Positions 902-58,435 of a stretch of DNA of 64,000 bases are shown here, piece after piece. A program made the translations under genes and the position numbers. Numbering within the stretch: the first letter of the stretch is position 1; each line of letters begins with the position of its first letter. Source of the DNA: Mycolicibacterium anyangense (GTDB lineage Bacteria > Actinomycetota > Actinomycetes > Mycobacteriales > Mycobacteriaceae); assembly GCF_010731855.1 (NCBI RefSeq), contig NZ_AP022620.1:3906001-3970000 (forward strand). Reading direction: 5' to 3'. Under the pieces are notes generated by a model. It was not told where the DNA came from. It saw only the letters and a program-made list of their open reading frames with translations, and did no database searches.

Positions 902-964
902 TGCACCCGTCCGGCGGCTTGGAATGCATGACTCCGCGGCCGGCCCGCAGTAGCGTCTACGGCC

Positions 965-2437: not shown

Positions 2438-2478
2438 GCCTTCGGTTCACCTTCGCCGGGCCCCTGGCGCCCAGCCGT

Positions 2479-2498
2479 TATGTATGGTTACATACATA
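2479..2498. promoter_or_regulatory. Palindromic operator upstream of tetR gene
   Basis: TATGTATGGTTACATACATA is a perfect inverted repeat: 8-bp arms around GTTA. It sits directly before the TetR reading frame and is typical of an autoregulatory TetR operator. An ATG lies inside the left arm at 2480, which argues that the true start is the GTG at 2501. Confidence 0.7.
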
Positions 2499-2500
2499 GG

Positions 2501-3058
2501 GTGGCAGGTCCCCGTGAGCGCATGGTCAGCTCGGCCGTTCTGCTGATCCGGGAGCGTGGCGCCCATCCGACGGCGATCGCCGACGTGCTGGCGCACAGCG
2601 GGGCGCCGCGCGGTTCTGCCTACCACTATTTCCCCGGCGGCCGTACCCAACTGCTCTGCGAGGCAGTCGATTACGCCGCGGACTACGTGGCCGCCAAGAT
2701 GGAGCGCGCAACCAGCGGAGCCGACATGCTCGACACCCTGGTCCGCTTCTACCGCAAGCACCTGCTGGAGACGGACTATCGGGCGGGCTGCCCGGTACTC
2801 GCGGTGGCGGTGGAAGCCGGTGATCCCGACGCCGGCTCGCCGATGATCGAGCGTGCCGCGGCGGCATTCGACCGCTGGAACGCCCTGATCGCACAGCGCC
2901 TCATCGCCGACGGTATGGCCACCACGCGCGCCGCTGACCTCGCGGTGCTGATGATCTCGGCTCTGGAAGGCGCGATCGTGCTGGCCCGCGCCGCCCGCGA
3001 CAGCACTCCTCTCGATACCGTCCACCGCCAACTACGCAGTCTGCTCGAGGCCTGCTGA
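2501..3058 (+). CDS. TetR/AcrR-family transcriptional regulator (LmrA/YxaF-like)
   Basis: About 185 residues. The N-terminal helix-turn-helix is clear (ADVLAHSGAPRGSAYHYFPGG) and the C-terminal half resembles the LmrA/YxaF ligand-binding domain (GCPVLAVAVEAGD). GTG 2501 is preferred over ATG 2480 because the latter lies inside the operator palindrome. The oxidoreductase gene starts 18 bp downstream on the same strand, so this regulator probably controls itself together with the oxidoreductase and acyl-CoA ligase genes. Confidence 0.88.
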   Translation: MAGPRERMVSSAVLLIRERGAHPTAIADVLAHSGAPRGSAYHYFPGGRTQLLCEAVDYAADYVAAKMERATSGADMLDTLVRFYRKHLLETDYRAGCPVLAVAVEAGDPDAGSPMIERAAAAFDRWNALIAQRLIADGMATTRAADLAVLMISALEGAIVLARAARDSTPLDTVHRQLRSLLEAC

Positions 3059-3076
3059 GAACAGGGAGTACCGCGA

Positions 3077-5341
3077 ATGTCCGCTGACTGGCAGCCCACC
3101 GCCTGCATCCTCTGCGAGTGCAACTGCGGCATCGTCGTGCAGACCGAAGGTGGCCGGTTGGCCAAGATCCGGGGCGACAAGGACCACCCCGGATCGCAGG
3201 GGTACACCTGCAACAAGGCGCTGCGCCTGGACCACTACCAGAACAACCCGTCACGGCTGACCTCCCCGCAGCGGCGCCGGCCGGACGGAAGCTACGAGCA
3301 GATCGACTGGGACACCGCGATCACCGAGATCGCCGCCGGCTTCCAGCAGATCGCCGAAACCTACGGCGGCAACAAGATCTTCTACTACGGCGGCGGCGGG
3401 CAGGGCAATCATCTCGGTGGTGCCTATAGCAGTGCGTTCCTCAAGCCGCTGGGTTCGCGGTACCGCTCCAACGCGCTGGCACAGGAGAAGACCGGCGAGT
3501 ACTGGGTGGACGCCCACTTGTACGGCGGGCACACCCGCGGTGAGTTCCGCAATGCCGAAGTCTCGGTGTTCGTCGGGAAGAACCCCTGGATGTCACAGGG
3601 CTTCCCACAGGCCCGCACCGTGCTCAATGAGATCGCCAAGGACCCCGCGCGATCGATGATCGTGATCGACCCGGTGCTCACCGACACCGCGAAGATGGCC
3701 GACTTCCACCTGCGCGTCAAGCCCGGCGCCGACGCCTGGTGCCTGGCCGCGCTCGCGGCCGTGCTGGTGCAGGAGAATCTCTGTGCTGAAAGCTTTCTCG
3801 CCGAGCATGTGCACGGTGCCGACGCCGTCCGTGACGTACTACGCACCGTGCCGATCGACGACTACGCCGAGCGCAGCGGGGTCGACGAGGAGCTTCTGCG
3901 CGCGGCCGCCCGGCGCATCGCCGCGGCCGACAGCGTCGCGGTGTTCGAGGACCTCGGCGTGCAACAGGCACCGAACAGCACGCTGTGCTCCTACCTGAAC
4001 AAACTGCTGTGGATCCTGACCGGTAGTTTCGCCAAACGCGGTGGACAGCACCTTCATTCGACGTTCGCCCCGCTCTTCAGCCCCAGCGGGGTCGGCCGCT
4101 CCCCCGTGACCGGTGCGCCCATCATCGCCGGACTGATGCCGTCCAATGTGGTGCCAGAAGAGATCCTGACCGATCACCCCGACCGGTTCCGGGCGATGAT
4201 CGTCGAGAGCGCCAACCCCGCCCATTCGATCGCCGACTCCGAGCTATGTCGCACTGCGTTCCAGTCGCTGGAGTTCCTCGTGGTGATCGACGTGGCCATG
4301 ACCGAGACCGCGCGCCTGGCCCACTACGTGCTGCCCGCGGCCAGCCAATTCGAGAAGCCCGAGGCCACGTTCTTCAATTTCGAGTTCCCGCACAACGAGG
4401 TTCATCTGCGCCACCCGCTGTTCGAGCCGCTGCCCGGCACCCTGCCCGAACCGGAGATCTGGGCCCGGCTGGTCCGCGCCCTCGACATCGTCAGCGACGA
4501 GGACCTGCGCCCACTGCGCGAGGCGGCCGCACAGGGGCGCGACGCCTACACCGCGGCATTCTTCACCGCGATGGCCGCCAACCCCGCACTGGGCAAAGTG
4601 CTGCCCTACGTGCTCTACGAGACGCTCGGCCCCACCCTGCCCGACGGGCTCAAAGGCGCTGCTGCACTATGGGGTTTGGCCCAGAAGGCGGTGCTCACCT
4701 ACCCTGACGCGGTGCACCGGGCCGGTCATGCCGACGGCAACGCGTTGTTCGACGCCATCCTGGCTGGCAAGTCGGGGGTGACGTTCAGCGCGCACGAGTA
4801 CGCCGACGATTTCGCGCTGATCAGCCATCCCGACCACAAGATCCGGCTGGAGATGCCGGAGATGCTCGACGAGATCCGCGCGCTGCACACCGCTCGTCCG
4901 GGGTACGCCACCGACGAGTTCCCCATCGTGCTATCGGCCGGTGAGCGGCGGGCGTTCACCGCAAACGACATCTTCCGCGATCCGTCCTGGCGTAAACGCG
5001 ACGCCGACGGCGCGCTGCGGGTCAGCGTCGAAGACGCCGAGGCGCTCGGCCTGGTCGACGGCGGCCTGGCCCGGATCACCACCGCCGCCGGCAGCGCCGA
5101 GGCCCGCGTCGAGATCAGCGAGACCATGTTGCCCGGCCATGCCGCACTGCCCAACGGTTACGGACTCGACTTCGTCGCCGCGGACGGCGCCACCGAGGTC
5201 CCCGGTGTCGCACCCAACGAGTTGACCTCAGCGGACTGGCGGGACGCCTACGCCGGGACACCCTGGCACAAGCATGTGCCGGCGCGTATCGAGGCGGTCC
5301 GCGCCGACCTCGCCACCGCGGGCAGCGAGGGCGCCTTCTAG
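3077..5341 (+). CDS. Molybdopterin-dependent oxidoreductase, [4Fe-4S]-containing
   Basis: A 754-residue member of the DMSO reductase/formate dehydrogenase superfamily. The N-terminal iron-sulfur motif is complete: C10-x2-C13-x3-C17 and C45. A bis-MGD-binding core follows, with a molydop-binding C-terminal domain (about 620-740, ending PNELTSADWRDAYAGTPWHK). No twin-arginine signal is visible, so it is probably cytoplasmic. It has a good ribosome site (CAGGGAG) and is followed 11 bp later by an acyl-CoA ligase, suggesting a catabolic operon under the upstream TetR. The substrate cannot be inferred. Confidence 0.9.
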   Translation: MSADWQPTACILCECNCGIVVQTEGGRLAKIRGDKDHPGSQGYTCNKALRLDHYQNNPSRLTSPQRRRPDGSYEQIDWDTAITEIAAGFQQIAETYGGNKIFYYGGGGQGNHLGGAYSSAFLKPLGSRYRSNALAQEKTGEYWVDAHLYGGHTRGEFRNAEVSVFVGKNPWMSQGFPQARTVLNEIAKDPARSMIVIDPVLTDTAKMADFHLRVKPGADAWCLAALAAVLVQENLCAESFLAEHVHGADAVRDVLRTVPIDDYAERSGVDEELLRAAARRIAAADSVAVFEDLGVQQAPNSTLCSYLNKLLWILTGSFAKRGGQHLHSTFAPLFSPSGVGRSPVTGAPIIAGLMPSNVVPEEILTDHPDRFRAMIVESANPAHSIADSELCRTAFQSLEFLVVIDVAMTETARLAHYVLPAASQFEKPEATFFNFEFPHNEVHLRHPLFEPLPGTLPEPEIWARLVRALDIVSDEDLRPLREAAAQGRDAYTAAFFTAMAANPALGKVLPYVLYETLGPTLPDGLKGAAALWGLAQKAVLTYPDAVHRAGHADGNALFDAILAGKSGVTFSAHEYADDFALISHPDHKIRLEMPEMLDEIRALHTARPGYATDEFPIVLSAGERRAFTANDIFRDPSWRKRDADGALRVSVEDAEALGLVDGGLARITTAAGSAEARVEISETMLPGHAALPNGYGLDFVAADGATEVPGVAPNELTSADWRDAYAGTPWHKHVPARIEAVRADLATAGSEGAF

Positions 5342-46951: not shown

Positions 46952-47088
46952 CGAGGATCCAGAAGGCACTGTCGTCGTCCTGCAAGACCCGGTGCGCAAG
47001 GAATTGTGTATCGCTGGTTACCTGTCGTCGAGTGACACAGAGAAGTGAATCGCGATGGTGCGTGCGGGGGTAATGCGGAGGTGTTGCT

Positions 47089-47129
47089 GTTTCGGATAGG
47101 GAGAAGGTGGGGGGTGCGGTTTCTGTCTC
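47089..47129 (+). repeat. 41-bp interspersed repeat, copy 1 (weak)
   Basis: Aligned without gaps it shares about 25 of 41 positions with the 49511 copy, including the CTGTCTC end. The minus-strand gene 47128-47541 stops exactly at its end (TCA = last two repeat bases plus A). Confidence 0.5.
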
Positions 47130-47541
47130 ACGTCGTCACCGTCGTGTAGAGCCAGGTCGAGGTGGGACGGTCAAACGTCATGTGCAGCACGGTGCCGGTG
47201 GGGTGTTGGGATGCGGTTTGAACCATGGTGTCGATGAGGTCGGCGGCTAGGAGCTCCAGTTCGGCCGGGTCCTCGACGACGGCGGCCCATTGACTGAAGT
47301 CGAGGTGGAACCTGCAGGCCGAGACTAGGGCCTCTGATGTCGTGTCGACGTCTCGTACTTCAGCCTTGGTGGAGTAGCCGTGCGACACGATGCCCTGGTG
47401 TACACGGGTGCAGATGCAGTCGTGGTCGGGGCACACGAATGGTGCCACGACGATTTCTTCGCGTATGGCTGACCATGCGTCGTGGTGTTGGCGTGGCGGC
47501 GTGGGCCGCTTGGCGACAAGGACTTTCATCGTGGATGTCAT
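47128..47541 (-). CDS. Uncharacterised protein with Cys/His cluster
   Basis: A 137-residue protein with a possible metal site, CPDHDCICTRVHQG. The N-terminus MTSTMKVLVAKRPTPP and the C-terminal helix AADLIDTMVQTASQ look like a small alpha/beta fold. I recall similar actinobacterial proteins but cannot name a function. It overlaps the isomerase-like gene upstream by 4 bp (ATGA), so the two form an operon. Its stop codon lies on the end of a 41-bp repeat. Confidence 0.7.
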   Translation of the reverse strand: MTSTMKVLVAKRPTPPRQHHDAWSAIREEIVVAPFVCPDHDCICTRVHQGIVSHGYSTKAEVRDVDTTSEALVSACRFHLDFSQWAAVVEDPAELELLAADLIDTMVQTASQHPTGTVLHMTFDRPTSTWLYTTVTT

Positions 47542-48326
47542 TCGAAGAGGTCGCGGGATGGGGGGCGCACACCGTCGTTGGTGAAGGCCGGAAGTAGCTT
47601 GGTGAAAGCCGGGAGCACAGGGGCGGGATCGCCGCGCCAGGGCAGCGCCAACAGTTGGCGGACACTACGCCGGCCACCAAAGGATCGGAGGGCTTCGAAA
47701 TCGGAGAGTTGAAGGGCGAGTTGACCGCGTCCACTGTCCGGTGGGCCGAGCTGGACGGTTCCGATCGTGGGAGTGGTCAGTTCAAGGGTCGGCAATCGTC
47801 CTTGGCGGATGAATTGATCTCCCATGGTGGTGACGAAACCGAGGGCGACCTGGAAGGTGAGATCGCCTGTACGCGAACCTGATTCACTGAGTACGGCTCG
47901 GATGTCGTGCTCATGGGTGAGAGCGTCGAAGACCAGTTGGCCCGCCGAAAGCTCTGGCGCCATGGCCAAGGTCGAGGCCACTGAATCAATCGTGTGTCCC
48001 CACTGGTCGAGCAGGTCGTCGAGGCTGTGCCCGGCTAGGCGTTCGACCTGCGCTTGGGTCCAAGAGTCGGCGGCTTTGTCTTCCACGTTGAGCGACACAA
48101 CATCCTGCGCAACGCCAACAAGGTGCGCGACCGTCTCGCGGATGCTCCAGCCCGGACACGCCGGTACCGGTAGCGATTCCACGTCGCCACGCCCGCGGAG
48201 CAGAGCGTCAAGACGCTCGTAAACGATGCGGTACGCGGTTGTGGCATCGGGGGTGGGTAACAGCCGGGATTTATGGCTGTGTTGCGCGCACGTGCCGTCG
48301 CCCCGCTGTTCCTCGCGGAAGTTCAT
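47538..48326 (-). CDS. Maleylpyruvate isomerase-like, mycothiol-dependent (DinB fold) protein
   Basis: A 262-residue protein of the TIGR03083/MDMPI_N type. The four-helix DinB-like bundle carries the metal-binding histidines: PACPGWSIRETVAHLVG and ALTHEHDIRAVL. Proteins of this family use mycothiol as a cofactor or leaving group in isomerase or transferase reactions; the substrate here is unknown. An AT-rich promoter region (48327-48380) lies upstream. Confidence 0.85.
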   Translation of the reverse strand: MNFREEQRGDGTCAQHSHKSRLLPTPDATTAYRIVYERLDALLRGRGDVESLPVPACPGWSIRETVAHLVGVAQDVVSLNVEDKAADSWTQAQVERLAGHSLDDLLDQWGHTIDSVASTLAMAPELSAGQLVFDALTHEHDIRAVLSESGSRTGDLTFQVALGFVTTMGDQFIRQGRLPTLELTTPTIGTVQLGPPDSGRGQLALQLSDFEALRSFGGRRSVRQLLALPWRGDPAPVLPAFTKLLPAFTNDGVRPPSRDLFE

Positions 48327-48633
48327 GGGAGGACCCTACACAGAAAGTAAGGAAATTAAGAGATAATTAAGTAAATCCTAAGGGGTGCTGCGTTGGCGCG
48401 CTCGTCGGTCGGCAACGCCTTCGGGACGCTCGCGGCTATCTCGAATTACATAAACGAGGTGGGTCAGATCTTGTCTCACCAGTCCGCACCCGTGGGGCCG
48501 GAGCTGGTCGAGGGGTCGGACAACGTGATCGAAGCGAAGACTTTCCCAAGGATCAGCCTGGCCAGTCCGGCCCTGGCGCTGTCTAGGGGTCTGGCGTGAA
48601 TCCAGTTGACGGATAGTGCTTGTCCGCTGACGC
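48327..48633. other. Intergenic region with AT-rich promoter and a repeat copy
   Basis: Bases 48340-48380 are A/T-rich with repeated TTAA steps and probably hold the promoter of the minus-strand isomerase-like gene. A weak 41-bp repeat copy is at 48437-48477. A 68-codon plus-strand frame (48393-48599) starts at TTG after AAGGGG, but it crosses the repeat and has no recognised homology, so I do not call it. Confidence 0.5.
48437..48477 (+). repeat. 41-bp interspersed repeat, copy 2 (weak)
   Basis: Ungapped alignment to the 53674 copy gives about 22 of 41 matches, concentrated in CGAGG near the middle and TTGTCTC at the end. Position between genes fits the series, but alone it would not be convincing. 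Confidence 0.4.
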
Positions 48634-48918
48634 TTAGCGCGAATCCGCGCTCACGCGTCTCGCCAAGACCACGTGCACGAATGATAACCCGAAGAGGATT
48701 ACTGACCCCAGACCTGTCGTCAGAATCTTCATGGATGCTGACATTCCGGCACTGTCAGGAGTAAAGGGCGCATAGGGAGTGAGCACCCACACGGCAAGAC
48801 CAGCGAATACGAGTGCCGCTATCCAGTAGTACAGTCTTGCGGCCCTCCGACTGAGTCTGCGGTCATAGAAAAGACTGAACAACACTGTCGCCCAGCGCTT
48901 CTGACCTTGCTCTCCCAT
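48634..48918 (-). CDS. Small membrane protein, DUF4282-like
   Basis: A 94-residue protein starting at ATG 48918 after GGGAGGCG. Two hydrophobic helices (LYYWIAALVFAGLAVWVL and ILTTGLGSVILFGLSFVHVV) follow a WATVLFSLFYDRRLSRR segment, a layout like DUF4282 proteins. Function unknown. It lies between two copies of the 41-bp repeat. Confidence 0.7.
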   Translation of the reverse strand: MGEQGQKRWATVLFSLFYDRRLSRRAARLYYWIAALVFAGLAVWVLTPYAPFTPDSAGMSASMKILTTGLGSVILFGLSFVHVVLARRVSADSR

Positions 48919-49023
48919 ACCACTCGCCTCCCGGAGTTCTGTCGCCTTCTTGCTGGTGGCAACACCAGCAACAATAGTTGTGTCGCCCCTCCTTTTAGAG
49001 AACATGCTTGTTCAGCACCACGT

Positions 49024-49064
49024 AGCTCCTATCTAGAGATTGTGGGCCGCTCAGATGCTGTCCC
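49024..49064 (+). repeat. 41-bp interspersed repeat, copy 3
   Basis: A clear copy: TATCTAGAGATT in the left half and GCTCAGATGCTGTCCC at the right. The ATG of the following VOC gene lies inside it (repeat positions 32-34), and homology to the paralogous VOC protein begins just after the repeat ends. Confidence 0.75.
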
Positions 49065-49486
49065 ACTACGGCGGGGATACTCGTCCGATGCTGGGTCACC
49101 TCGGTGTCAACATGCCCGATCTCGCCGCGGCGAAGCGCTACTACACGGCGCTGATGCCCCTTGTCGGCTTCGAACTATTCCTTGATACCGACGATGAGTT
49201 CGCTTTCCGACCAGCCAACAGCAAACCCGGCACATACCTATTCTTCTACCCATCCGCTGTAGCTGGCGCCTACTCATCAGACCGAACAGGGCTGCAGCAC
49301 TTAGCTTTCATGGTCCGCAATCGATCGCTCGTCGATGCCGTACACGAGTTCGCGAGCGGCAGCGGGAACACCATCGTCTACCCTCCCCAGCACTTCCCGC
49401 AGTACCCCGGGCACTACTACGCCACCTTCTGGCTGGACCCGTTTGGACTGAAGTTAGAAGCGGTCTGCCACCACGATCGCGACTAG
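49055..49486 (+). CDS. VOC-family protein, paralogue of the 59531-59956 protein
   Basis: A 143-residue vicinal-oxygen-chelate protein: MLGHLGVNMPDLAAAKRYY at the start, RTGLQHLAFMV in the middle and FWLDPFGLKLEAVCHHDRD at the end. It is roughly 75% identical to the protein at 59531-59956, and the last 32 residues are the same in both. The ATG at 49055 sits inside a 41-bp repeat, and the first five residues (MLSHY) are encoded by repeat and junction sequence. Probable metal-dependent enzyme of unknown substrate. Confidence 0.87.
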   Translation: MLSHYGGDTRPMLGHLGVNMPDLAAAKRYYTALMPLVGFELFLDTDDEFAFRPANSKPGTYLFFYPSAVAGAYSSDRTGLQHLAFMVRNRSLVDAVHEFASGSGNTIVYPPQHFPQYPGHYYATFWLDPFGLKLEAVCHHDRD

Positions 49487-49510
49487 ATCCGATCCAACGA
49501 GCCCCGACAT

Positions 49511-49551
49511 GTCTCAGATCTAGAGATAGTGGACGTCTCATGTCCTGTCTC
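49511..49551 (+). repeat. 41-bp interspersed repeat, copy 4
   Basis: Clear copy, used as the reference: GTCTCAGATCTAGAGAT at the left, GGACGTCTCATG in the middle, TCCTGTCTC at the right. TCTC and GAGA can pair as a small stem around AGATCTA. It lies between the VOC stop (49486) and the mraY stop (49592). Confidence 0.78.
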
Positions 49552-49591
49552 GCATAGTGCCGGTGCGCCGATCGACGCTGACGTGGTGGGC

Positions 49592-50674
49592 TTAGATCCC
49601 GGCGGCTGCCAGCCATTCGCTGTAGAAGAGCGCGATTCCGAGTCCGCAGGAGATGGCAGCGATTAGCCAGAACCGGATGGTTAGCGCGGTTTCCGGCCAG
49701 TCCATGAGTTCGAAGTGGTGGTGCAGCGGTGAGTTCCGGAACACGCGTCGGCCAGTACTACGGAATGAGATGACCTGAATTACCACGGAGCTGACTTCGG
49801 CGACGAACAGCGCGCCCAGGATGATGGCCAGAATTTCGGTGCGGCTGGTCACCGACAGTCCGGCGATGATGCCGCCCAGGGTCAGAGAACCGGTGTCACC
49901 CATGATGATCTTGGCGGGTGCTGCGTTCCACCATAAAAAGCCGATGCAGGCTCCGGCGGTCGCGGCGGCGACGAGTGCCAGGTCGAGTGGGTCTCGGACG
50001 TGGTAGCACCCGGGTGTGGCGGCCTCAGCGCATTGGTTTCGGAACTGCCAGAATGTGATGATGACGTAGGCGGCGGTGACCATGGCCATGGCACCCGCGG
50101 CCAGCCCGTCGAGTCCGTCAGTGAGGTTCACCGCGTTCGACCAGGCAGAAACCACCATGATGCAGAACAGCACGAACACCACCGGCGGCAGTGCGAATGC
50201 TGCGATGTCGCGGACGTAGGACAGCGCGGGGCTGCCAGGGGTTAACCCGTCCGCGTTGCGGAACTGCAGTGCGAGAACGCCGAAGAGGATGGCCGCGGCG
50301 AGCTGGCCGGCGCTCTTGGCTCGCTTGGTCAAGCCGAGGTTCCGGCCTCGCCGCACTTTGAGGTAATCGTCGGTGAAACCGACAACACCTAGTGCGGTTG
50401 CTAGTCCGAGAACGAGTAGCCCTGATGCCGTCGGCCCCTCACCGCCGAGCGCGAGTTCGTCGAAAAGGGTGCTGGTCAGGTAGCTGACCCAGATCGCGGT
50501 GACGATCGCCAGCCCGCCCATCGTGGGCGTTCCCTGCTTGCGTTGGTGGCTCTTCGGGGCCTCGGCGCGAATGGGTTGTCCCAACCCAAGCCGGGAGAAT
50601 GTCCGGATCAACACCGGAGTCAGTAGAGCGGCGACCACCAGGGCTATACCGGCGGCGACAAGTATCGATTTCAT
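49592..50674 (-). CDS. mraY: MraY: phospho-N-acetylmuramoyl-pentapeptide transferase (accessory copy)
   Basis: A complete 360-residue MraY with ten predicted transmembrane helices. Conserved blocks are [34 protein letters not shown] (catalytic Asp pair), [28 protein letters not shown] and the C-terminal [13 protein letters not shown]. It transfers phospho-MurNAc-pentapeptide to undecaprenyl phosphate to make lipid I. It resembles the mycobacterial enzyme but is not in a division/cell-wall cluster, so it is presumably a second copy in the genome. It lies alone between two repeats. Confidence 0.95.
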
Positions 50675-50844
50675 CGGGCTATGAGGGTCTTTCGCCCGCA
50701 GATCTGTCGATCACAGCGCGACATCGAAACCCAAGCCCCCACCGCGCCAGTATCGCGCAGCATCTTCCGAGGCCCCACCCACAGCGCCCCGGCGCGGCGG
50801 TGCCTGTGCCCGAGTTGTTTAGTACCTAACAAAATCGTCCGGCC

Positions 50845-50885
50845 GTCTCGCATGTGGAGATTTGGGACGGCTCGCATCCTGTCTC
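50845..50885 (+). repeat. 41-bp interspersed repeat, copy 5
   Basis: Clear copy: GTCTCGCATGTGGAGAT at the left, GGGACGGCTCGCATCCTG to the right, ending GTCTC. The minus-strand XRE gene stops exactly at its end (TCA = last two repeat bases plus A), the same register as at copy 1. Confidence 0.78.
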
Positions 50886-51729
50886 ATTCAATGGCGCTGT
50901 CCGCGGGGCGTGCGTTGGCCAGTCGGCGACGGCTGTGTTCATCTAGCGGGGTGTAGACGATGAGCTGGAGTTCGGGTCTGTCGGTGGGACGCAGCTGGTG
51001 GTGTTCGAGCCGTACCCGTCCAGCGGTGGGGTGGTGAAATATCCGTTCTCTGGACTGGAACCCGGCGACGGGGTGCCCGTCCCAGGCCCGTCGGAACTCG
51101 GGGCTGATGGTGCGCAATCGGTCGACGAGGGAGGTAATGCGTGAATCACCAATTCGTGCGGCGGTTTCGGCGCGAAACTCGGCCAGAAAGCGGCTGCTGG
51201 TCAGATCCCAATCGTCGAGCAGCTCGCGGACGCTGGGGTCGGTAAACACCAGCCACAGCAGGTTGCGGTTCTCGGTGTCGGTGTGTGCGATGGTGGGGTA
51301 CAGCGCGGCGTAGGCGATGTTCCATGCCGCGATCGACCAGTCCGCAGCGAGCGCGTAGGCCGGGTGGCTGATGTCGTCGAGAAGGCGTTGCAGATGCTCC
51401 GGTACGGACTCGGCACGGTGTTCTGGACCGGGCCGCTGGGGGCTGTAGCCGCCCAGTTCGAGCAGGTAGCGGTGCTCAGGAACGCTGAGCTGCAGCGCGG
51501 AGGCGACGGCGTCGAGCACGTGGCGTGAGGGGGTGATTGGCCGGCCCTGCTCCAGCCAGGTGTACCAGGTGACGCTCACCCCGCACAGGTAGGACACCTC
51601 TTCGCGGCGCAGCCCGGTGGTGCGTCCCCGTGGGAGCACCGGCAGTCCATGTGCCTCACGCGGCATCTGCTCGCGGCGGGCTCGCAGGAACGCCCCCATC
51701 TCGGCGCGACGCTCGGCCCCATCAGCCAT
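50884..51729 (-). CDS. XRE regulator with MmyB-type ligand-binding domain
   Basis: A 281-residue protein. The N-terminal helix-turn-helix (GRTTGLRREEVSYLCGVSVT, YTWLEQGR) is the form found with the MmyB-like C-terminal domain, seen here as ALAADWSIAAWNIAYAALY and the LWLVFTDPSVRELLDDW block. Such regulators bind a small, often fatty-acid-like ligand. It is divergent from ilvD, with an inverted repeat between them. The stop codon is formed at the edge of a 41-bp repeat. Confidence 0.9.
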   Translation of the reverse strand: MADGAERRAEMGAFLRARREQMPREAHGLPVLPRGRTTGLRREEVSYLCGVSVTWYTWLEQGRPITPSRHVLDAVASALQLSVPEHRYLLELGGYSPQRPGPEHRAESVPEHLQRLLDDISHPAYALAADWSIAAWNIAYAALYPTIAHTDTENRNLLWLVFTDPSVRELLDDWDLTSSRFLAEFRAETAARIGDSRITSLVDRLRTISPEFRRAWDGHPVAGFQSRERIFHHPTAGRVRLEHHQLRPTDRPELQLIVYTPLDEHSRRRLANARPADSAIE

Positions 51730-51737
51730 AGCAAGAC

Positions 51738-51758
51738 ACTAGTACTGCCACTACTAGT
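51738..51758. promoter_or_regulatory. Inverted-repeat operator between XRE gene and ilvD
   Basis: ACTAGTA and TACTAGT form perfect 7-bp arms around CTGCCAC, placed 9 bp upstream of the regulator start and 48 bp before ilvD. Likely bound by the MmyB-type regulator. Confidence 0.68.
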
Positions 51759-51805
51759 AGTCCGCGCGTCTTCCCGGCACTGCAGCGTTCGACCAGGCTG
51801 GTGGG

Positions 51806-53686
51806 ATGCCTGAACTTCGCTCCCGCACCGTCACTCATGGCCGCAACGCTGCAGGTGCTCGTGCCCTGCTTCGCGCAACAGGGGTCGCCCGCGACGACTT
51901 CGGCAAACCGATCGTTGCGGTCGCCAACAGCTTCACCGAGTTCGTGCCCGGACACACCCACCTGCAGCCGGTCGGACGAATCGTGTCCGGGGCGATCCAT
52001 GCCGCCGGCGGGATCGCGCGAGAGTTCAACACCATTGCCGTGGACGACGGGATCGCGATGGGACACGCGGGCATGCTGTACTCGCTGCCCTCGCGTGAGC
52101 TGATAGCCGACTCGGTGGAGTACATGGTCCAAGCCCACTGCGCCGACGCGCTGGTGTGCATCTCCAACTGCGACAAGATCACGCCGGGGATGCTGATGGC
52201 CGCCTTGCGCCTCGATATCCCGACGGTGTTCGTCTCGGGCGGGCCGATGGAGGGCGGGTCGGCGACCCTGAGCGATGGAACTCGGCGCGATGGGTTGCAT
52301 CTGATCGATTCGATGGCTGGTGCCGCCGATGCCGGGGTCAGTGACGAGGACTTAACGCGCCTGGAGGAAGCGGCCTGCCCGACGTGCGGGTCGTGTTCGG
52401 GGATGTTTACGGCCAACTCGATGAATTGTCTGGTCGAGGCCCTTGGTTTGGCTCTGCCCGGTAACGGGTCGACATTGGCCACCCACGTCGCGCGACGCGG
52501 TCTGTATGAGCGCAGTGGAGCGCTGGTGGTGGAGCTGGCGCGGCGGTGGTACGACACCGACGACGATCGGGTGCTGCCGCGGCGGGTGGCCAGTCGGGCG
52601 GCGTTCGGCAACGCGATGGCCATGGACGTCGCGATGGGTGGGTCGACCAACACCGTCCTGCACCTACTGGCCGCTGCCCATGAGGCCGGCCTGGACTTCA
52701 CCCTGGACGACGTCGATGAGATCTCTCGGCGGGTCGGGTGCCTGTGCAAGGTCGCCCCCAACGGCCCCCACTTGATGCAGGACGTGCACCGCGCCGGTGG
52801 CATCCCGGCACTGCTGGGTGAGCTGCGTCGAGGTGGGCTGCTCGACGAGCGGGTGTGGGCGGTGCACGCGACTTCGCTATCGGAATGGTTGAACGACTGG
52901 GACATCCGCGGCGGCACCGCCACCGCGCATGCCGTGGAGTTGTTCGGTGCCGCACCCGGCCGACAGCGGTCGTCCGAGGCGTTCTCTCAAGCAGCACAGT
53001 GGGATTCACTGGATACCGATGCTCACGACGGGTGCATTCGAGACGTCGCTCATGCCTACACTGCAGACGGTGGACTCGCCGTGCTAAGGGGCAGTCTGGC
53101 CGAGGGCGGGTGTGTGGTGAAGACCGCCGGTGTTGCACCGACGATGCTGCGTTTCATCGGCCCAGCGGTCGTCGTCGATTCCCAAGAGGAAGCCGTCGAG
53201 GTCATCCTGGCCGGTGGGGTACGTCCAGGGGACGTGCTCGTGGTGCGTTATGAGGGGCCCCGCGGCGGACCCGGCATGCAAGAAATGCTCTACCCCACTG
53301 CGTTTCTCAAGGGCCGCGGGTTGGATCGAGAGTGTGCGCTGGTCACCGACGGCCGCTTCTCCGGGGGCAGCTCCGGCTTGTCGATCGGACACGTCTCTCC
53401 CGAGGCCGCCGCCGGCGGCAGCATTGCATTGATCCACGGCGGCGACCTCGTCGACATCGACGTCCTCAACCGGACCATCGATCTGCGGGTCGACCCAGCG
53501 GAGCTGGCAGCGCGCCGTCGAGCCCTCGCGGCCGGTGAAGGTCACAAACCCCGACACCGTGTCCGCACCGTCTCGACCGCCCTGCACGCCTACGCCGCCT
53601 TGGTCACCTCTGCTGACCGCGGCGCCATCCGCGACCCATCGCTCATCCACGTCGGCTCCGCGGCGGCTACACCGTCTCAAATCTAA
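51806..53686 (+). CDS. ilvD: Dihydroxy-acid dehydratase IlvD, long form
   Basis: A complete 626-residue enzyme of the ~616-residue (E. coli-like) form: [21 protein letters not shown] at the start, cluster cysteines in [10 protein letters not shown] and [18 protein letters not shown], and [20 protein letters not shown] near the end. It dehydrates dihydroxy acids in branched-chain amino acid synthesis. The usual mycobacterial IlvD is a ~575-residue form, so this one was probably acquired. No other ilv gene is near. Its stop codon lies inside a 41-bp repeat. Confidence 0.94.
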
Positions 53687-53714
53687 AGATTCGAGGCAGC
53701 TCAATTCCTGTCTC
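53674..53714 (+). repeat. 41-bp interspersed repeat, copy 6
   Basis: Clear copy: GTCTCAAATCTAAAGATT at the left and GGCAGCTCAATTCCTG to the right, ending GTCTC. It overlaps the last codons and stop of ilvD (TAA at 53684). Confidence 0.77.
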
Positions 53715-53798
53715 GTTCGTAGGGAGTTGGGTGCCGTTACGTGCTTTTCCGCCTGCGCGTGTTGTTTTGTTGACCCCGATCGCGGTGCCGGGTTCGAC

Positions 53799-54104
53799 AT
53801 GCTGGCCGAGAACACCGGCACCGGTACCCGCACGGTGGCCCGCATCAACAGCGCCGGTGGGGTGCGGATGGTCACCACGTTCGTACGCACTCCGGCCGAC
53901 ACGGTGATGCTGGCCCACACCAACGGCTACCTGACCATCAACCGCGCCACGCCGACCGCCGAGACCGTCGGCATGTTTAGTCCGGCCGAAACCCGCGACG
54001 CCACAGGAAGACTCGTCCCGTCGTCGTACGTGGTCAAAAAGGTTGCCCCGCAACTGTACGTATTGGCCGAAGTTATCGACCCACGCCCCGACACCAGGCG
54101 CTGA
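53799..54104 (+). CDS. Hypothetical protein, possibly a gene fragment
   Basis: A 101-residue frame from ATG 53799 (MLAENTGTGTRTVARINSAG) with strand-rich sequence and a VPSSYVVKKVAPQLYVLAEV end. The frame is open upstream past position 53700, and the sequence reads like part of a larger protein (GAGFDM precedes the ATG). No ribosome site is obvious. It may be the 3' remnant of a gene cut near the repeat at 53674-53714. Confidence 0.4.
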   Translation: MLAENTGTGTRTVARINSAGGVRMVTTFVRTPADTVMLAHTNGYLTINRATPTAETVGMFSPAETRDATGRLVPSSYVVKKVAPQLYVLAEVIDPRPDTRR

Positions 54105-54178
54105 GCTGGCCGCCAAACAACGTCGAGATCTCCCCGCGAGCCTTCGGGAGGGGCGAGTTCAGACCATTTGGGGCCGAA

Positions 54179-54610
54179 CTACTGGACGCCAGATAGATTC
54201 TTCGGGCAGTAGGCCATTGCCGCGGCGACCAAAAAAGGGGTCGCCTGATCAATGTTGAAACCAGCCTTGAGCATCCACTGCAAGGTGCCAACCTTGCCGA
54301 CGGTATCGAACTTGTTGCACGCCATGTGTGCCGAGTCGAACAGGCTGCCACGCTCGACGGTGGAAAAGAATGACCATTGTGACGACGACTGCAGCTGGGC
54401 TAGGAACACCCGGTCTTGGTCGGTTATGTCGCCGGGTCGTGTTGTGGACGTCGGCGCGGCGGTAGCCGACTCGGTGGCAGACGGACTGGTGGAGGTAACC
54501 GTGACCGTCGACACCGTCGCAGGATGTTGCTCGTTTGCCGGCCCGCAACCGACCAAGCTCACTGCCGTGACTCCGATACCGCACCATAACGCGCCTATAC
54601 GCATTCCCAT
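54179..54610 (-). CDS. DUF732 lipoprotein
   Basis: A 143-residue protein starting at ATG 54610 (MGMRIGALW; a second ATG is 6 bp downstream). A lipobox is present (AVSLVGCGP), so the mature protein should be anchored by its first Cys. A Ser/Thr-rich linker follows, then a DUF732 domain (DRVFLAQLQSSSQWSFF, HMACNKFDTVGKVG, AAAMAYCPKN) with two cysteines. Exported, mycobacteria-typical, function unknown. Confidence 0.8.
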   Translation of the reverse strand: MGMRIGALWCGIGVTAVSLVGCGPANEQHPATVSTVTVTSTSPSATESATAAPTSTTRPGDITDQDRVFLAQLQSSSQWSFFSTVERGSLFDSAHMACNKFDTVGKVGTLQWMLKAGFNIDQATPFLVAAAMAYCPKNLSGVQ

Positions 54611-54643
54611 ACCCCGTCCCAGACATGCCGCTGACAATTACCT

Positions 54644-54820
54644 GTGAGAGGCTACGACACCACATTCGACTGCAGCAATCGCTCCGGTCCGATCAGCTGC
54701 CGCGACTGTGCCCAACGCGACCTGCTCACCAGACAGCCACAACTGCGGCCCTCCAACCCGGCGCAGCAGCGAGCGATCCAGGCAGACCGGGCGGCTACCG
54801 TGACTAACCGTCACGCCTGA
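54644..54820 (+). CDS. Possible small Cys-containing protein, 58 residues
   Basis: A short ORF from GTG 54644, divergent from the DUF732 lipoprotein. It reads VRGYDTTFDCSNRSGPISCR and then DCAQRDLLTRQPQ, with cysteines at 10, 19 and 22 that could bind a metal. About three quarters of its third codon positions are G or C, higher than in the overlapping frame 54625-54807. No ribosome site is clear. Confidence 0.35.
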   Translation: MRGYDTTFDCSNRSGPISCRDCAQRDLLTRQPQLRPSNPAQQRAIQADRAATVTNRHA

Positions 54821-54995
54821 CCGCCGTTCAGAAAGCAGGGACGATATCCACTCGCGAGAACCGCACTCACGACGACCAAGGATCATCAGGGCACAAGAAC
54901 CGCGATCAGGACAAAAAGAAGAAGAAAAGCAGCCAGCACCACCCCAAACCTCACTGAACTGGAAAGGACGACGCTGATGGCAGGGATGATCGGGA

Positions 54996-55409
54996 ATGAA
55001 CTCCTCGCCCCAAGCCACCATGATCCCCGACTATCGCCAGATTTCTTTCGTTGCATTGGGCTGGAACGAGGTTCCAGAACTCGACGACTACCCCGTGGAG
55101 TTCATCGCGGATGAATCGAGCGTCAACGTCTTTACCTTCGCTGACGACCAGGACGAGCACGCTAATCGCACCGTCGACATCTACGTCTACCGAGGCGCCG
55201 ACATCACCGGGCTGGGGCGACTCATCTTTGACGCCCCGCTGAATTTTCCGCAGCCCGAACTGACCTTCGGCAGCATCCTGGAAGTCGCGGACTACCACCA
55301 TCACGTGCCACTCAGCCGAACAGGCGCCATACCTATCCGGGTCCTCACCCGAGAAAGCCAGCCGGGCAAAGGAACCGACATCATCAACGTCCTCATCGAC
55401 GACAGCTAG
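54996..55409 (+). CDS. Hypothetical protein, strand-rich
   Basis: A 137-residue acidic protein. The sequence (YRQISFVALGWNEVPELDDY, DIYVYRGADITGLGRLIFD) suggests a compact beta-rich fold. No motif or family was recognised. ATG 54996 or ATG 55020 (MIPDYRQISF) could be the start. A purine-rich stretch at about 54900-54935 lies upstream. The stop is 40 bp before a weak 41-bp repeat. Confidence 0.6.
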   Translation: MNSSPQATMIPDYRQISFVALGWNEVPELDDYPVEFIADESSVNVFTFADDQDEHANRTVDIYVYRGADITGLGRLIFDAPLNFPQPELTFGSILEVADYHHHVPLSRTGAIPIRVLTRESQPGKGTDIINVLIDDS

Positions 55410-55448
55410 CCAAGCCGCCGGCTGAAATGGCGACGAAGCTTGGAAGTC

Positions 55449-55489
55449 TTTCTGCACTTCTAGAAACGAGGCTGATCACTCGCTGTCTC
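55449..55489 (+). repeat. 41-bp interspersed repeat, copy 7 (weak)
   Basis: About 23 of 41 positions match the 53674 copy, notably CGAGGC in the middle and CGCTGTCTC at the end. TTTCT and AGAAA could pair as a stem in the left half. Confidence 0.45.
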
Positions 55490-55548
55490 AACCGAAACAG
55501 CCCAGCCGTGCCAGGTGCAGCGATTCGGTCGTGTCGTGGTGATGTCTG

Positions 55549-56169
55549 TCAGCGCGGGTCGAATACCGCGGCAAGGTCGTGTTTGTCACCGGTGAGGTGT
55601 CCGGCGGTGATCGCTTGTTGGGTGGTGAGCATTCCGGCGGCGAGGCCCAGTATGACCGTGGGTTCAGCGCGTAGCACGGTCTTGGATTGTTGGTCGGCAC
55701 AGGGGCTGATGTGGGTGCCGGTTTCGTCGATGTGGACGCTCAGGGTTGTGCCGTCGACCTCGATACCTACTGCGGCCGGGGTTTCGGATTGAATTGGGCC
55801 GCGGAGTGACTCGAGGGCTACGACAAGCCAGTGGGGTTGGAAGCTGTCGTTTTGGGGGCCGGTGGCCATGAGGGGCTTGCTCCAGTTCACCAGTGCTGCC
55901 ACGGTGCTGCGGAGTTCGTGTCCCCAGATTGTGAGTGCGTAAGCGACGCCGTTGCTGGTGTGGTCGAGCTGGCGTTGGACAACTCCAGCGTCTTCGAGTT
56001 CACGCAGGCGGTCGGTGAGCAGATTGGTGGAGATGCCGGGAAGCCCGGCGTGGAGTTGGTTGTAGCGTGCTGGGCCGGTGAGGAGTTCACGCACGATGAG
56101 CAGGCTCCACCGGTTTCCCACGACATCGAGTGCGCGCGCGAGGCCGCAGTACTGACCGTATGACCTCAT
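55549..56169 (-). CDS. HxlR-family regulator with C-terminal SCP2-like domain
   Basis: A 206-residue protein. Residues ~1-95 are an HxlR winged helix (YCGLARALDVVGNRWSLLIVR, LPGISTNLLTDRLRELEDAG). The C-terminal ~100 residues look like a sterol-carrier/SCP2-type domain often fused to these regulators in mycobacteria (VDGTTLSVHIDETGTHISPC). It may sense a lipid or redox signal. Its neighbour on the same strand starts 766 bp upstream. Confidence 0.88.
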   Translation of the reverse strand: MRSYGQYCGLARALDVVGNRWSLLIVRELLTGPARYNQLHAGLPGISTNLLTDRLRELEDAGVVQRQLDHTSNGVAYALTIWGHELRSTVAALVNWSKPLMATGPQNDSFQPHWLVVALESLRGPIQSETPAAVGIEVDGTTLSVHIDETGTHISPCADQQSKTVLRAEPTVILGLAAGMLTTQQAITAGHLTGDKHDLAAVFDPR

Positions 56170-56206
56170 CCAGTGACCAACCCTTCCTGCCCGTTCTTCG
56201 GCTTCG

Positions 56207-56935
56207 CTAGTGGACGTTTATCTCGTCGAAGTCGAGTGCCAATAGGGTCGGCAACGACATGACGCTGTGTCGCGGCCCGCGTGCGAGCACGCGCCGCTGG
56301 GTCGGAAACACCAGTCCATCGATGGTGCGGTACTGGCTGCACAACAGCGTGGCGTTGGCCCAGGTACCGACTGGTTCGGCGCGAAAGTCGTGGCGGCCGA
56401 TGAGGCCGTCGTCATCGACGTAGAAGGTCTGCTGGCGGCAGTGGGTGTGGATGGTGCCAGGAAACGTTGCCTGCAGCTCTCGCCACCGGCGGCCGGCTAT
56501 CTGACACGGGCGTCCCTCGGTGACGATGATGCCCGGGTAGGTCAGCAGCAGCGGTGAGGTGAGATAGTTCCAGAACGCATACCCGGCAAAGTAAGTGGTG
56601 TCCGAACGATCCCATCGAACGTTGCGGCGCAGCCCGCTGAGGCCAAAGAAGGCAGTGCGGGGATTGGTTCGGAAATCGATCACCTCTCCGTCTGCTGTTT
56701 CGATGCGCGCCTGGCCGCGGTCGAACACGCCAAGGCGGCCGGGCTGCGGGAAGTCGTGGAGAACGGTGCGCTGCTCGGCAGGGGAGACCTCGACGGTGAA
56801 GTTCGACAACTTGTTGCCGGGGAAACGTTGGGGCAGCAGCCCACCCACGCGGCCACGCGCGGTGATCGTGGTGAGGGCCCGCCAGCGGTCCACGCCGCCG
56901 TAGGCGTCGAGAACCTTGTTGAGTAGCTCGCTCAT
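56207..56935 (-). CDS. Conserved hypothetical protein
   Basis: A 242-residue protein starting at ATG 56935 (MSELLNKVLDAYGGVDRW). The sequence is strand-rich (FTVEVSPAEQRTVLHDFPQP, GLVFPTQRRVLARGP) and resembles uncharacterised actinobacterial proteins with a lipoprotein-carrier-like beta fold but without a signal peptide. I cannot assign a function. It precedes the HxlR gene on the same strand and may be cotranscribed with it. Confidence 0.7.
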   Translation of the reverse strand: MSELLNKVLDAYGGVDRWRALTTITARGRVGGLLPQRFPGNKLSNFTVEVSPAEQRTVLHDFPQPGRLGVFDRGQARIETADGEVIDFRTNPRTAFFGLSGLRRNVRWDRSDTTYFAGYAFWNYLTSPLLLTYPGIIVTEGRPCQIAGRRWRELQATFPGTIHTHCRQQTFYVDDDGLIGRHDFRAEPVGTWANATLLCSQYRTIDGLVFPTQRRVLARGPRHSVMSLPTLLALDFDEINVH

Positions 56936-57068
56936 GACCGCCCTCACATGCTAGCTTCATTTTTGATTGTGGACTTGTAGATTACACGTGATCATGTCGG
57001 CGTGGGCGGAGCGCAGCGGATGGAGCCGGGATCGGCGGCAGCAACATGGTCCTAGGAGGAGTGGTGGG

Positions 57069-57473
57069 ATGCAGATGAACTGGCTTGGTGTCGTGGTCGC
57101 ACTCGTTGCGGGGACGGCAGTCGCCGGGCTGTGGTACGGGAAGCTGTTTGCCGCCGCATGGTGGTCTCTGACCGGCATCACCCCGGAGCAGTCCAAGGCG
57201 TCCAGCACACGAAACATGGTCCAGTTGGTCCTGGCCAACGCGCTGACGGCGGTAGGGCTTGCACTGGCATTCGAGGTGGCGTCTATTGCCACCGGTGTTC
57301 ACTCTGCGTGGCTCGCGATCCTCGTCGGCGTCGTAGCCTGGTTGGCTTTCTCGGTGACAACCCTGCTCCAGCACAACGCATTTGAACTCAAGCCGCCCAG
57401 GCTGACCGTCATCAACTGCGCCTACCAACTCGCACTGTTCTTGACCATGACGCTGGCGATCGCACTTTTCTGA
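57069..57473 (+). CDS. DUF1761 membrane protein
   Basis: A 134-residue protein starting at ATG 57069 after AGGAGGAG; a second ATG is 6 bp downstream. Four hydrophobic helices match DUF1761: WLGVVVALVAGTAVAGLWYG, ANALTAVGLALAF, LVGVVAWLAFSVTTLL and CAYQLALFLTMTLAIALF. Function unknown. It is divergent from the 56207-56935 gene and convergent with the HAD gene. Confidence 0.87.
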   Translation: MQMNWLGVVVALVAGTAVAGLWYGKLFAAAWWSLTGITPEQSKASSTRNMVQLVLANALTAVGLALAFEVASIATGVHSAWLAILVGVVAWLAFSVTTLLQHNAFELKPPRLTVINCAYQLALFLTMTLAIALF

Positions 57474-57511
57474 TGACTCCCAATCGTGGGCGCACCGGAG
57501 ACGCATCCCGT

Positions 57512-58354
57512 TCAGGGGAACCATCTCGACAGTAGGGTGGCCACACCGTCGTCAGCGGCTGAGGGGCAGATCTCGTCGGCGATCGCCTGGACCGAAGCGG
57601 GCGAGTTGCCCATAGCTACACCGTGGGCCGCCCAGATGAGCATCTCGATGTCGTTGACGCCGTCGCCGACTGCCAACGTCTGCGACGCGCCGACGCCCAA
57701 TTTCACGCGGAGCCGTTCCAGCATCGCAGCCTTCGTAACCCCCACGGCAGTGACATCGGCCAACGGCTCATCGGTGTAGCAACAACACTGGACGTTTGGA
57801 ATCACATTGTTGGATAGAGCTTCAGCCAGCTCGGAGCCGCTGTGTCCGGGCCAGTGCACGGCCAGCCGGGTTGTCCAGGCGGCCGCCAACTGGTCGATCT
57901 CAACCAGTGTGACAGCGCCATAATGGGTATCGGCGTCGTCGACCAGACCAGTGGTCCACACCCCGACGCCGGGGTTCTCGGCTACGAACACTGCGCCAGG
58001 AAGCCGATCGTGTAGATGCGCGATCGGCGCGGCTAGTGGGAACACCACCTGTTCGATGAGGAGTCCGGTCGCGGTGTCGATAAGCACAGCGCCGTTGGAA
58101 CAGACCGCGAAGCCCACGGAGATCTCCAGTTCCTGCAGGAAAGGCAGGGTCGCGGTGGACAAACGGCCGGTGGACAGCACCACGTGAGCGCCACTCTCGA
58201 CGATGGTGCGCACGGCAGCGCGGACGGCCACGCTGATGCGCCGGTGTGCTCGACGTTGGGCATCCGATCCCGCGTGCAAGGTGCCGTCGATGTCCAGAAC
58301 TACCATCGTCGGGCGCCCTGAGGCGAAAAGCGCCGGCTCATCTTCTGATGCCAC
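57512..58354 (-). CDS. HAD-superfamily (Cof-type) phosphatase
   Basis: A 280-residue HAD hydrolase. Motif I is VVLDIDGTLH, motif II VVLSTGRLS, motif III Lys in GVTKAAMLE and motif IV AVGDGVNDIEML. The large C2B-type cap lies between residues ~90 and ~190. Cof-type enzymes dephosphorylate sugar phosphates or nucleotides. A repeat copy and then the nitronate monooxygenase-like gene lie upstream on the same strand. Confidence 0.92.
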   Translation of the reverse strand: MASEDEPALFASGRPTMVVLDIDGTLHAGSDAQRRAHRRISVAVRAAVRTIVESGAHVVLSTGRLSTATLPFLQELEISVGFAVCSNGAVLIDTATGLLIEQVVFPLAAPIAHLHDRLPGAVFVAENPGVGVWTTGLVDDADTHYGAVTLVEIDQLAAAWTTRLAVHWPGHSGSELAEALSNNVIPNVQCCCYTDEPLADVTAVGVTKAAMLERLRVKLGVGASQTLAVGDGVNDIEMLIWAAHGVAMGNSPASVQAIADEICPSAADDGVATLLSRWFP

Positions 58355-58394
58355 AACACAATGATCCTAGGTAGGCCGCCGATCGTACGCAGCT

Positions 58395-58435
58395 GAGACG
58401 GCATGCGAGCGGTCCCCGGTCTCACGAACCAACAA
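58395..58435 (-). repeat. 41-bp interspersed repeat, copy 8 (minus orientation)
   Basis: On the minus strand the right half matches the 50845 copy closely: GGGACCGCTCGCATGCCGTC against GGGACGGCTCGCATCCTGTC. The left half is diverged. It lies 13 bp beyond the stop of the minus-strand gene at 58448, so it again follows a gene end. Confidence 0.65.

Follow-up and report, generated by a model that had tools for sequence, protein, structure and literature searches.

A degenerate 41-bp repeat at gene-cassette joints in mycobacteria as a candidate recombination site of a plasmid-borne serine resolvase

An accessory segment of Mycolicibacterium anyangense contains a degenerate 41-bp repeat that recurs between its genes, and the question raised by this locus is what the repeat is and what it does there. 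The stretch analysed (the window, 64,000 nucleotides, G000:C1:3906001-3970000) belongs to a host genome of 5.70 Mb in a single contig; here G-numbers denote genomes, with G000 as the host of the window, and L-numbers denote fetched loci or records. It is proposed, with a probability of about 0.8, that the repeat is a site-specific recombination site at the joints of gene cassettes, recombined by a plasmid-borne serine resolvase, in an arrangement that would be integron-like without being an integron. By sequence comparison, the cassettes are bounded at the core of the site, the same cassettes being found beside unrelated neighbours in different species, and the array sites match the res of a mycobacterial plasmid resolvase in both sequence and orientation.

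The host genome has 13 copies of the repeat, all within 27.8 kb (3953089-3980847) and 12 of them in one orientation. When a profile was searched iteratively over 142 kb of the host chromosome, they scored 30.8-53.8 bits, whereas the reversed-sequence control never exceeded 10.3 bits and peaked at 9.3 in the final round. A sequence-only covariance model over the 5.70-Mb genome gave them E-values of 5.6e-8 to 3.0e-4, with next-best matches outside the array at E 0.037 and 0.051; both the profile and the model were trained on these same 13 copies. A pattern for the right half of the repeat, with at most one mismatch, matches the whole genome eight times, always within 3955044-3977806, and once when read backwards as a control. 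Given these profile, pattern and covariance-model searches with their controls, the array is real and runs on for about 11 kb past the window end, where five further copies are found (3972819, 3973406, 3976793, 3977766 and 3980806). The copies inside the window, in window positions and with their scores in the 142-kb profile search, are:

47089..47129, plus strand: array site 1, weak and degenerate; 34.5 bits (21 with the later profile), E 1.1e-4
48437..48477, plus strand: array site 2; 42.1 bits; duplicated at 3972819
49024..49064, plus strand: array site 3; 48.8 bits; columns 1-30 as in 3973406, then divergent
49511..49551, plus strand: array site 4, centre AG at 49522-49523; 51.8 bits
50845..50885, plus strand: array site 5, centre GG; 46.1 bits
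53674..53714, plus strand: array site 6, centre AA; 50.4 bits
55449..55489, plus strand: array site 7, weak; 36.7 bits (21 with the later profile), E 2.1e-4
58395..58435, minus strand: inverted array site, adjoining an inverted HAD-hydrolase gene; 30.8 bits

A previous sequence-only reading of the window had named five of these copies and listed those at 47089, 48437 and 55449 as weaker candidates; all eight are members by the profile and whole-genome searches, and its description of an intergenic element of constant length in an accessory segment is borne out; it offered no mechanism. The copy at 49024 departs from the GTCTC that it placed at the left and the CTGTCTC at the end, having AGCTC and CTGTCCC there. 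The profile search it had suggested gives matches far above the reversed-sequence control in the host genome, and other genomes of the genus are also positive.

Of 248 genus genomes searched with the 13-copy model, 79 gave a match at E<=0.1; about 25 genomes are expected by chance at that level, and therefore a best E<=1e-3 was used as cut-off. At this cut-off 61 of the 248 genomes (G000 included) bear sites, on chromosomes and on small plasmids, 44 of them with at least two matches at E<=0.1 and 17 with one. A 53-site model was positive in eight genomes of an order sample (397 genomes, 85 genera) and in seven of a class sample (394 genomes, 137 genera), all from this genus; no other genus was positive in the two samples, in which 16 candidates were scored per genome and weak matches may be missed. 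A strict pattern in the named genome collection matched 15 contigs, 12 of them titled Mycobacterium or Mycolicibacterium, two from one Microbacterium metagenome-assembled genome (MAG) and one from an Actinomycetota MAG. Strong sites are present in L119, L123 and L128, contigs binned as Microbacterium and another actinomycete MAG, and these non-mycobacterial assignments could be binning errors.

For the anatomy of the site, 60 fetched regions, eight named plasmids and the host region (1.40 Mb) were combined, yielding 166 matches above 18 bits and 143 distinct sites above 25 bits, while the reversed control of the same 1.40 Mb reached 11.5 bits in the first round and had none above 10 in the last. 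The consensus of the 41-bp site is GTCTCRNWTCT-AR-AGAWWCGRGRYSGMTCAGWTCYTGTCTCR. The left 24 bp form the dyad GTCTCRNWTCT-AR-AGAWWCGRGRY, with inverted arms at columns 1-11 and 14-24, and the right 17 bp (columns 26-42) form a box that abuts this core and matches the tandem box of res. The central dinucleotide is AG in 96 of the 143 sites, AA in 29 and another in 18. The spacing of 24 and 12 bp between CTC motifs, already noted correctly from the window alone, is accounted for by a 24-bp resolvase dyad followed by a tandem box, for which res also has a 12-bp distance between the repeats.

The TCTC/GAGA stem around a 7-nt loop, noted earlier in most copies, finds no support as a hairpin, as none of its four pairs covary. 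Among 53 sites, pairing over the 11-bp dyad was 78.7 percent within sites versus 77.6 percent in shuffled combinations (58 of 500 shuffles were as high), and the covariation score was equalled in 28 of 500 shuffles. Arm matches were 6.52/11 within sites and 6.45/11 between sites; this equality is expected of a dyad bound by protein, with halves contributed by different cassettes, and not of a hairpin. A hairpin or RNA reading of the repeat was dropped for this lack of clear arm covariation, and covarying stem arms like those of attC were likewise not found.

The position at which cassettes switch was located with pairs of sites sharing one flank only, at >=85 percent flank identity and with L067 and L070 dropped. 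There are 14 right-sharing and eight left-sharing pairs (12 and 7 distinct), partly non-independent, as the L063-L065-L069 and L049-L050-L051 groups supply several. In the 12 distinct right-sharers, identity is 0.33 in columns 6-8 (baseline 0.41) and 0.90 in columns 17-21 (baseline 0.48); in the seven distinct left-sharers, it is 0.90 and 0.63, respectively. On average, the switch can be placed in the interval from column 8 to column 17, which encloses the central dinucleotide, but not at a single base. Pair by pair, 9/14 right-sharers differ only at columns <=10 and the L078/L104 pair shows no difference in the site, whereas 4/8 left-sharers differ only at column >=11, mostly from 17, and 2/8 differ on both sides, densely from 17-18. 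In the window, site 5 has a left flank 93.6 percent identical to L102:10162 and an unshared right flank.

Two modules are bounded exactly. That of L078 and L104 (6074 bp, 98.3 percent) has its second boundary at column 13; no homology abuts either module end, and a 196-bp patch of 73 percent identity lies farther off. That of L065 and L069 (4012 bp, 100 percent), a two-cassette block, runs from column 9 to column 16 and carries chromate-resistance genes in L069; its first cassette is found in six loci at 98.6-100 percent and its second in five, and L063 and L064 have the region of the block in common at 99.0 percent over 4385 bp. In L065 an extra 1.3-kb segment is located between the block and res, while in L069 res comes directly after the block. 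The host genome also has a duplication of about 2.1 kb at 95.8 percent (window 46958-49053 versus G000:C1:3971340-3973435), which carries a counterpart of site 1 at 3971470 (E 0.26) and whose right end is at site column 30, not at the core centre. Exchange at column 30 as a general rule, derived from this duplication, was dropped after the multi-genome junction test, although one more pair runs to column 31.

The candidate enzyme emerges from the array loci themselves. Among open reading frames (ORFs) of at least 120 codons in the fetched array loci of 18 genomes, the family present in most genomes (7/18) is a small serine resolvase with a resolvase N domain (PF00239) and a helix-turn-helix domain HTH_7 (PF02796), a combination found at array loci and not in G000. 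Relatives at >=60 percent identity are present in 82 of the 5000 best-scoring plasmid records; the best 40 of these 82 are all from Mycobacteriaceae, at 15-44 kb, and 15 of 18 plasmids fetched have an annotated mobF relaxase. Its relatives in the PDB are invertase, Tn3, gamma-delta and Sin, and it has the RVST and DRLGRS motifs, which we take to hold the catalytic residues and which align with the solved invertase relatives.

A site core of >=26.9 bits starts 140-153 bp before the matched start in 43 of 50 resolvase matches (>=70 percent identity with full upstream sequence, some being related plasmids), or in 38/45 after removal of five loci fetched twice. The best tandem-box match is at -70 to -78 in 50/50 upstream regions, weak in L136 and in the second L089 copy, and an inverted pair follows; the whole corresponds to a res with sites I to III of the Tn3/Sin type, in which the upstream core is site I. 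According to the available part of PMC2428073, site II of Sin is also head-to-tail. A profile of array columns 26-42 has its best match on the tandem box in 24/24 res regions, at +71 to +73 in 22 and at +81/+82 in two, and beats all 300 shuffles in 21 of them (not in L066, L080 and L136); the 24 are those left of 27 res regions without L133 (record end), L063 (near copy of L064) and the G000 remnant. Accessory sites II and III at fixed spacing are a property of the plasmid res, whereas the 41-bp array sites have the abutting box only. The cores about 145 bp upstream of the resolvase in L168 and L170 retain the right arm AGAAACGAGAC alone; their left half bears no relation to the site and looks like non-site DNA attached at the centre.

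The sites are also ordered relative to the resolvase gene. Adjacent sites have the same orientation in 89/91 pairs, and in 20 loci with a close resolvase (L070 and L130 left out) 51/51 sites point with the gene, 49 of them upstream. Of 86 loci, 42 have at least two strong sites (up to 10 per locus), 30 have one and 14 none. A close resolvase (>=71 percent identity; 48 genomes, six by partial matches only) and sites at E<=1e-3 co-occur, with sites in 28/48 genomes having the gene versus 33/200 of the others (odds ratio 7.1, p 1.6e-8, for related and non-independent species). The 134 centre-to-centre segments have a median of 1360 bp (10-90 percent range 600-3488) and form 99 families, 20 with more than one member; the set omits eight duplicate or re-fetched loci and the pMM23-type pair L066/L129, and some segments are counted more than once because L069, L070 and L130 are related plasmids and G174:C4 repeats itself. 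That contig (45160 bp), whose sequence recurs at a 37.5-kb offset, probably represents a circular plasmid with an overlap between its assembled ends. Three genomes have an identical 76-bp segment between two sites (L049:13933-14009, L050:13243-13319, L051:372-448), which is too short for a usual gene and is perhaps an empty cassette.

Under the favoured explanation, columns 1-24 would be a degenerate core for the small serine resolvase, with two 11-bp inverted arms and a central AG or AA, and columns 26-42 an abutting copy of the tandem accessory box of the resolvase, with a putative accessory-binding role. The resolvase would cut both strands at the central dinucleotide and rejoin them, its partners being either two 41-bp sites or one 41-bp site and site I of res, and cassettes would be excised as circles, captured next to res at site I and shuffled. 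A stronger form, to which we give even odds, is an active capture platform, a serine integron, in which the plasmid resolvase would capture, shuffle and excise cassettes through the 41-bp site, with its own res site I as the partner; such a platform would have an origin independent of IntI integrons and would be the source of orphan arrays in mycobacterial chromosomes. No description of such arrays was found among the top hits of searches in the open-licence literature, hence priority is unproven; the author of the earlier reading likewise knew of no described mycobacterial repeat of this form.

Several observations weigh against recombination of these sites by the resolvase. Every junction is a fossil, and recombination itself is unobserved. 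Resolvases of the Tn3 type act with topological selectivity and join separate molecules poorly, and serine recombinases normally require matching centres; the centres here vary, as counted above, and related cassettes may start with AG or AA. Among the junction pairs, 4/14 right-sharers (flank identity 86-92 percent) have mismatches on both sides and one has none, and 2/8 left-sharers do not break at the core; the copies at 49024 and 3973406 are identical through column 30, and L081:18025 and L059:12514 differ at columns 10, 11 and 13 and agree from 14 to 31. A single strong site is found in 30/86 loci and none in 14/86, and 17/61 site-bearing genomes have a single match. Furthermore, 33/61 site-bearing genomes lack a close resolvase, 20/48 resolvase genomes show no site at E<=1e-3, and 7/50 resolvase matches are without a good upstream core (L062, L079, L089 in its second copy, L094, L132, L168 and L170).

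Some of these observations are what would be expected if the sites had accumulated passively, an explanation that we consider unlikely, though it is the strongest of the rivals. In this case the resolvase would only resolve plasmid multimers, and rare cointegration or deletion at res-like sites would leave degenerate joints with no evolved cassette system; the plasmids do have a standard res beside the resolvase, several lack a strong 41-bp site (e.g., L066, L071 and L072), and the single-site loci fit as well. However, the conserved right box of the array sites is placed unlike res site II, and the uniform orientation, the 134 segments (some counted twice) with a median of 1.36 kb and the loci with up to 10 strong sites argue against it.

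Somewhat less probable still is that another serine recombinase acts on the sites, the plasmid resolvase having only an ancestry in common with it. A sister clade (L153-L164, 54-60 percent identity) provides an example, since a related core with an identical outer GTCTC/GAGAC can be present upstream of its members, two of 12 being of the AR type like the array sites (L156 and L161), and the site-bearing genomes without a close resolvase copy would be explained. Yet 7/12 sister cores with this outer type have a TT centre, which suggests a parallel specificity group, 1/12 has AA with a different inner arm and 2/12 have no core, whereas the array sites have TCT-AR-AGA and are physically linked to the close clade. 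Movement of cassettes by homologous recombination, with the sites as incidental patches of homology, is very improbable: the G000 duplication does end inside a site at column 30, and a second pair also extends past the core, but the sites, although short and degenerate, place the average switch within columns 8 to 17, and the two modules with exact bounds have their ends at columns 13, 9 and 16. Finally, ends of an insertion sequence (IS) or miniature inverted-repeat transposable element, the former already raised by the sequence-only reading, or an RNA element such as a terminator or an attC-like hairpin can be given hardly any weight, as the repeat is mostly intergenic and palindromic in its left half but lacks paired terminal inverted repeats and clear arm covariation and consists of direct repeats (89/91 adjacent pairs) bounding different genes, unlike IS ends.

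With recombination by the plasmid resolvase as the preferred explanation, the segments of the window can be read as cassettes, identified from ORFs and domain searches:

47128..48326, minus strand: cassette 1, a DUF7715 protein and an MDMPI_N (mycothiol-dependent type) protein
48634..49005, minus strand: cassette 2, a small protein with a weak DUF4383 match below cut-off
49040..49486, plus strand: cassette 3, a glyoxalase/VOC protein
49592..50674, minus strand: cassette 4, a second mraY, 70 percent identical to the copy at 1865889
50884..53686, both strands: cassette 5, an MmyB-like regulator (minus) and an IlvD-type dehydratase (plus)
53715..55448, both strands: cassette 6, an unknown ORF (plus), a DUF732 protein (minus) and an unknown ORF (plus)
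55549..58354, both strands: segment 7, an HxlR regulator (minus), an unknown ORF (minus), a DUF1761 protein (plus) and a HAD hydrolase (minus)

The cassette genes are thus in both orientations. A relative of the mraY of cassette 4 (89 percent protein identity) is in an array segment of another genome (L081); recurrence in two other genomes, considered at one point, was cut to this one, as L089 is without mraY. The stop codon TAA of the IlvD-type ORF (53684-53686, ORF end 53686) corresponds to columns 11-13 of site 6, and the common TAR at the site centre reads as a stop in the ilvD-type frame. In inverted orientation, the HAD region of segment 7 aligns over 812 bp with the cassette at 3976793-3977766, at 82.5 percent identity.

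The array of the window is an orphan, with a res-type terminal core kept and no resolvase or plasmid backbone found. The resolvase domain PF00239 has no match in G000, the same search being positive in 10/14 control genomes, and queries for relaxase, rep, ParA and resolvase, all four kinds of which hit a control plasmid, find nothing at E<=1e-3 in the 142 kb that surround the array; an integrated-plasmid origin of the array was dropped on this result. A tRNA scan of the flanking pieces L009, L010 and L012 (not L011) gave one tRNA-Leu, in L010. Beyond the last 41-bp site, at 3981300, GTCTCACATCCAGAGAAACGAGACAGCC is a res-type core with a perfect right arm; no accessory box is present in the 157 bp after it (best score -2.8 bits), and it is apparently the fossil end of a res. 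Two adjacent ORFs just past the array end (L009:13730-16663, minus strand), classed by eye as tyrosine-recombinase-like and DDE-like, were the first suspects for the recombinase and were dropped. Neither has a Pfam or NCBIfam match, and the tyrosine-recombinase-like ORF (L009:15512-16663) was discarded for this reason and because it is found in only 3/61 site-bearing genomes, G000 included.

As in integrons, the sites are directly repeated, one per cassette and in uniform orientation, one end has the recombinase gene together with a simpler primary site, and arrays without a recombinase (CALIN in integrons) occur as orphans. Unlike integrons, the enzyme here is a serine resolvase and not the tyrosine recombinase IntI, there is no sign of a folded attC, the genes are in both orientations and often have their own regulators, and the recombinase reads away from the array. 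A scan for IntI (TIGR02249), which covered G000 among the array-bearing loci, had no match over the cut-off and only weak ones outside the array, and 0/14 control genomes passed, so that it has no positive control. Membership among the integrons is not supported; by analogy, the array may work like one.

The 2-bp centre and the match to res do not fit dif. The pdif modules of Acinetobacter (XerC/XerD) resemble the present cassettes, in what the available parts of PMC6449649 and PMC12907356 describe, as plasmid accessory genes carried as modules between multimer-resolution sites, and differ in recombinase class and sites, those here having one orientation and an accessory box. In the Tn3/gamma-delta and Sin-type resolvase-res systems, as far as the available part of PMC2428073 goes, a small serine resolvase similarly acts on a site I dyad with exchange at the centre, with accessory sites that include, in Sin, a head-to-tail box at site II like that of the present res; compact 41-bp sites between cassettes are unmentioned in that part. 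The crossover site is recognized here by inverted arms, a 2-bp centre and a switch there, on average at columns 8-17, with two pairs deviating. Res-hunter transposons insert by transposition with their own ends, in contrast to the exchange at the core centre proposed here; their association with res sites is a point in common (Tn5053 family; available part of PMC7765201).

The genes concerned include metal-resistance genes on plasmids and, in the window, second copies of core enzymes such as MraY. To our knowledge, how mycobacteria assemble their accessory genes is poorly understood. If the proposal is true, it would raise the question of how a topologically selective resolvase joins separate molecules, and modular gene capture would have a second chemistry, that of a cassette system run by a small serine resolvase, which would provide a searchable signature of mobile genes in the genus.

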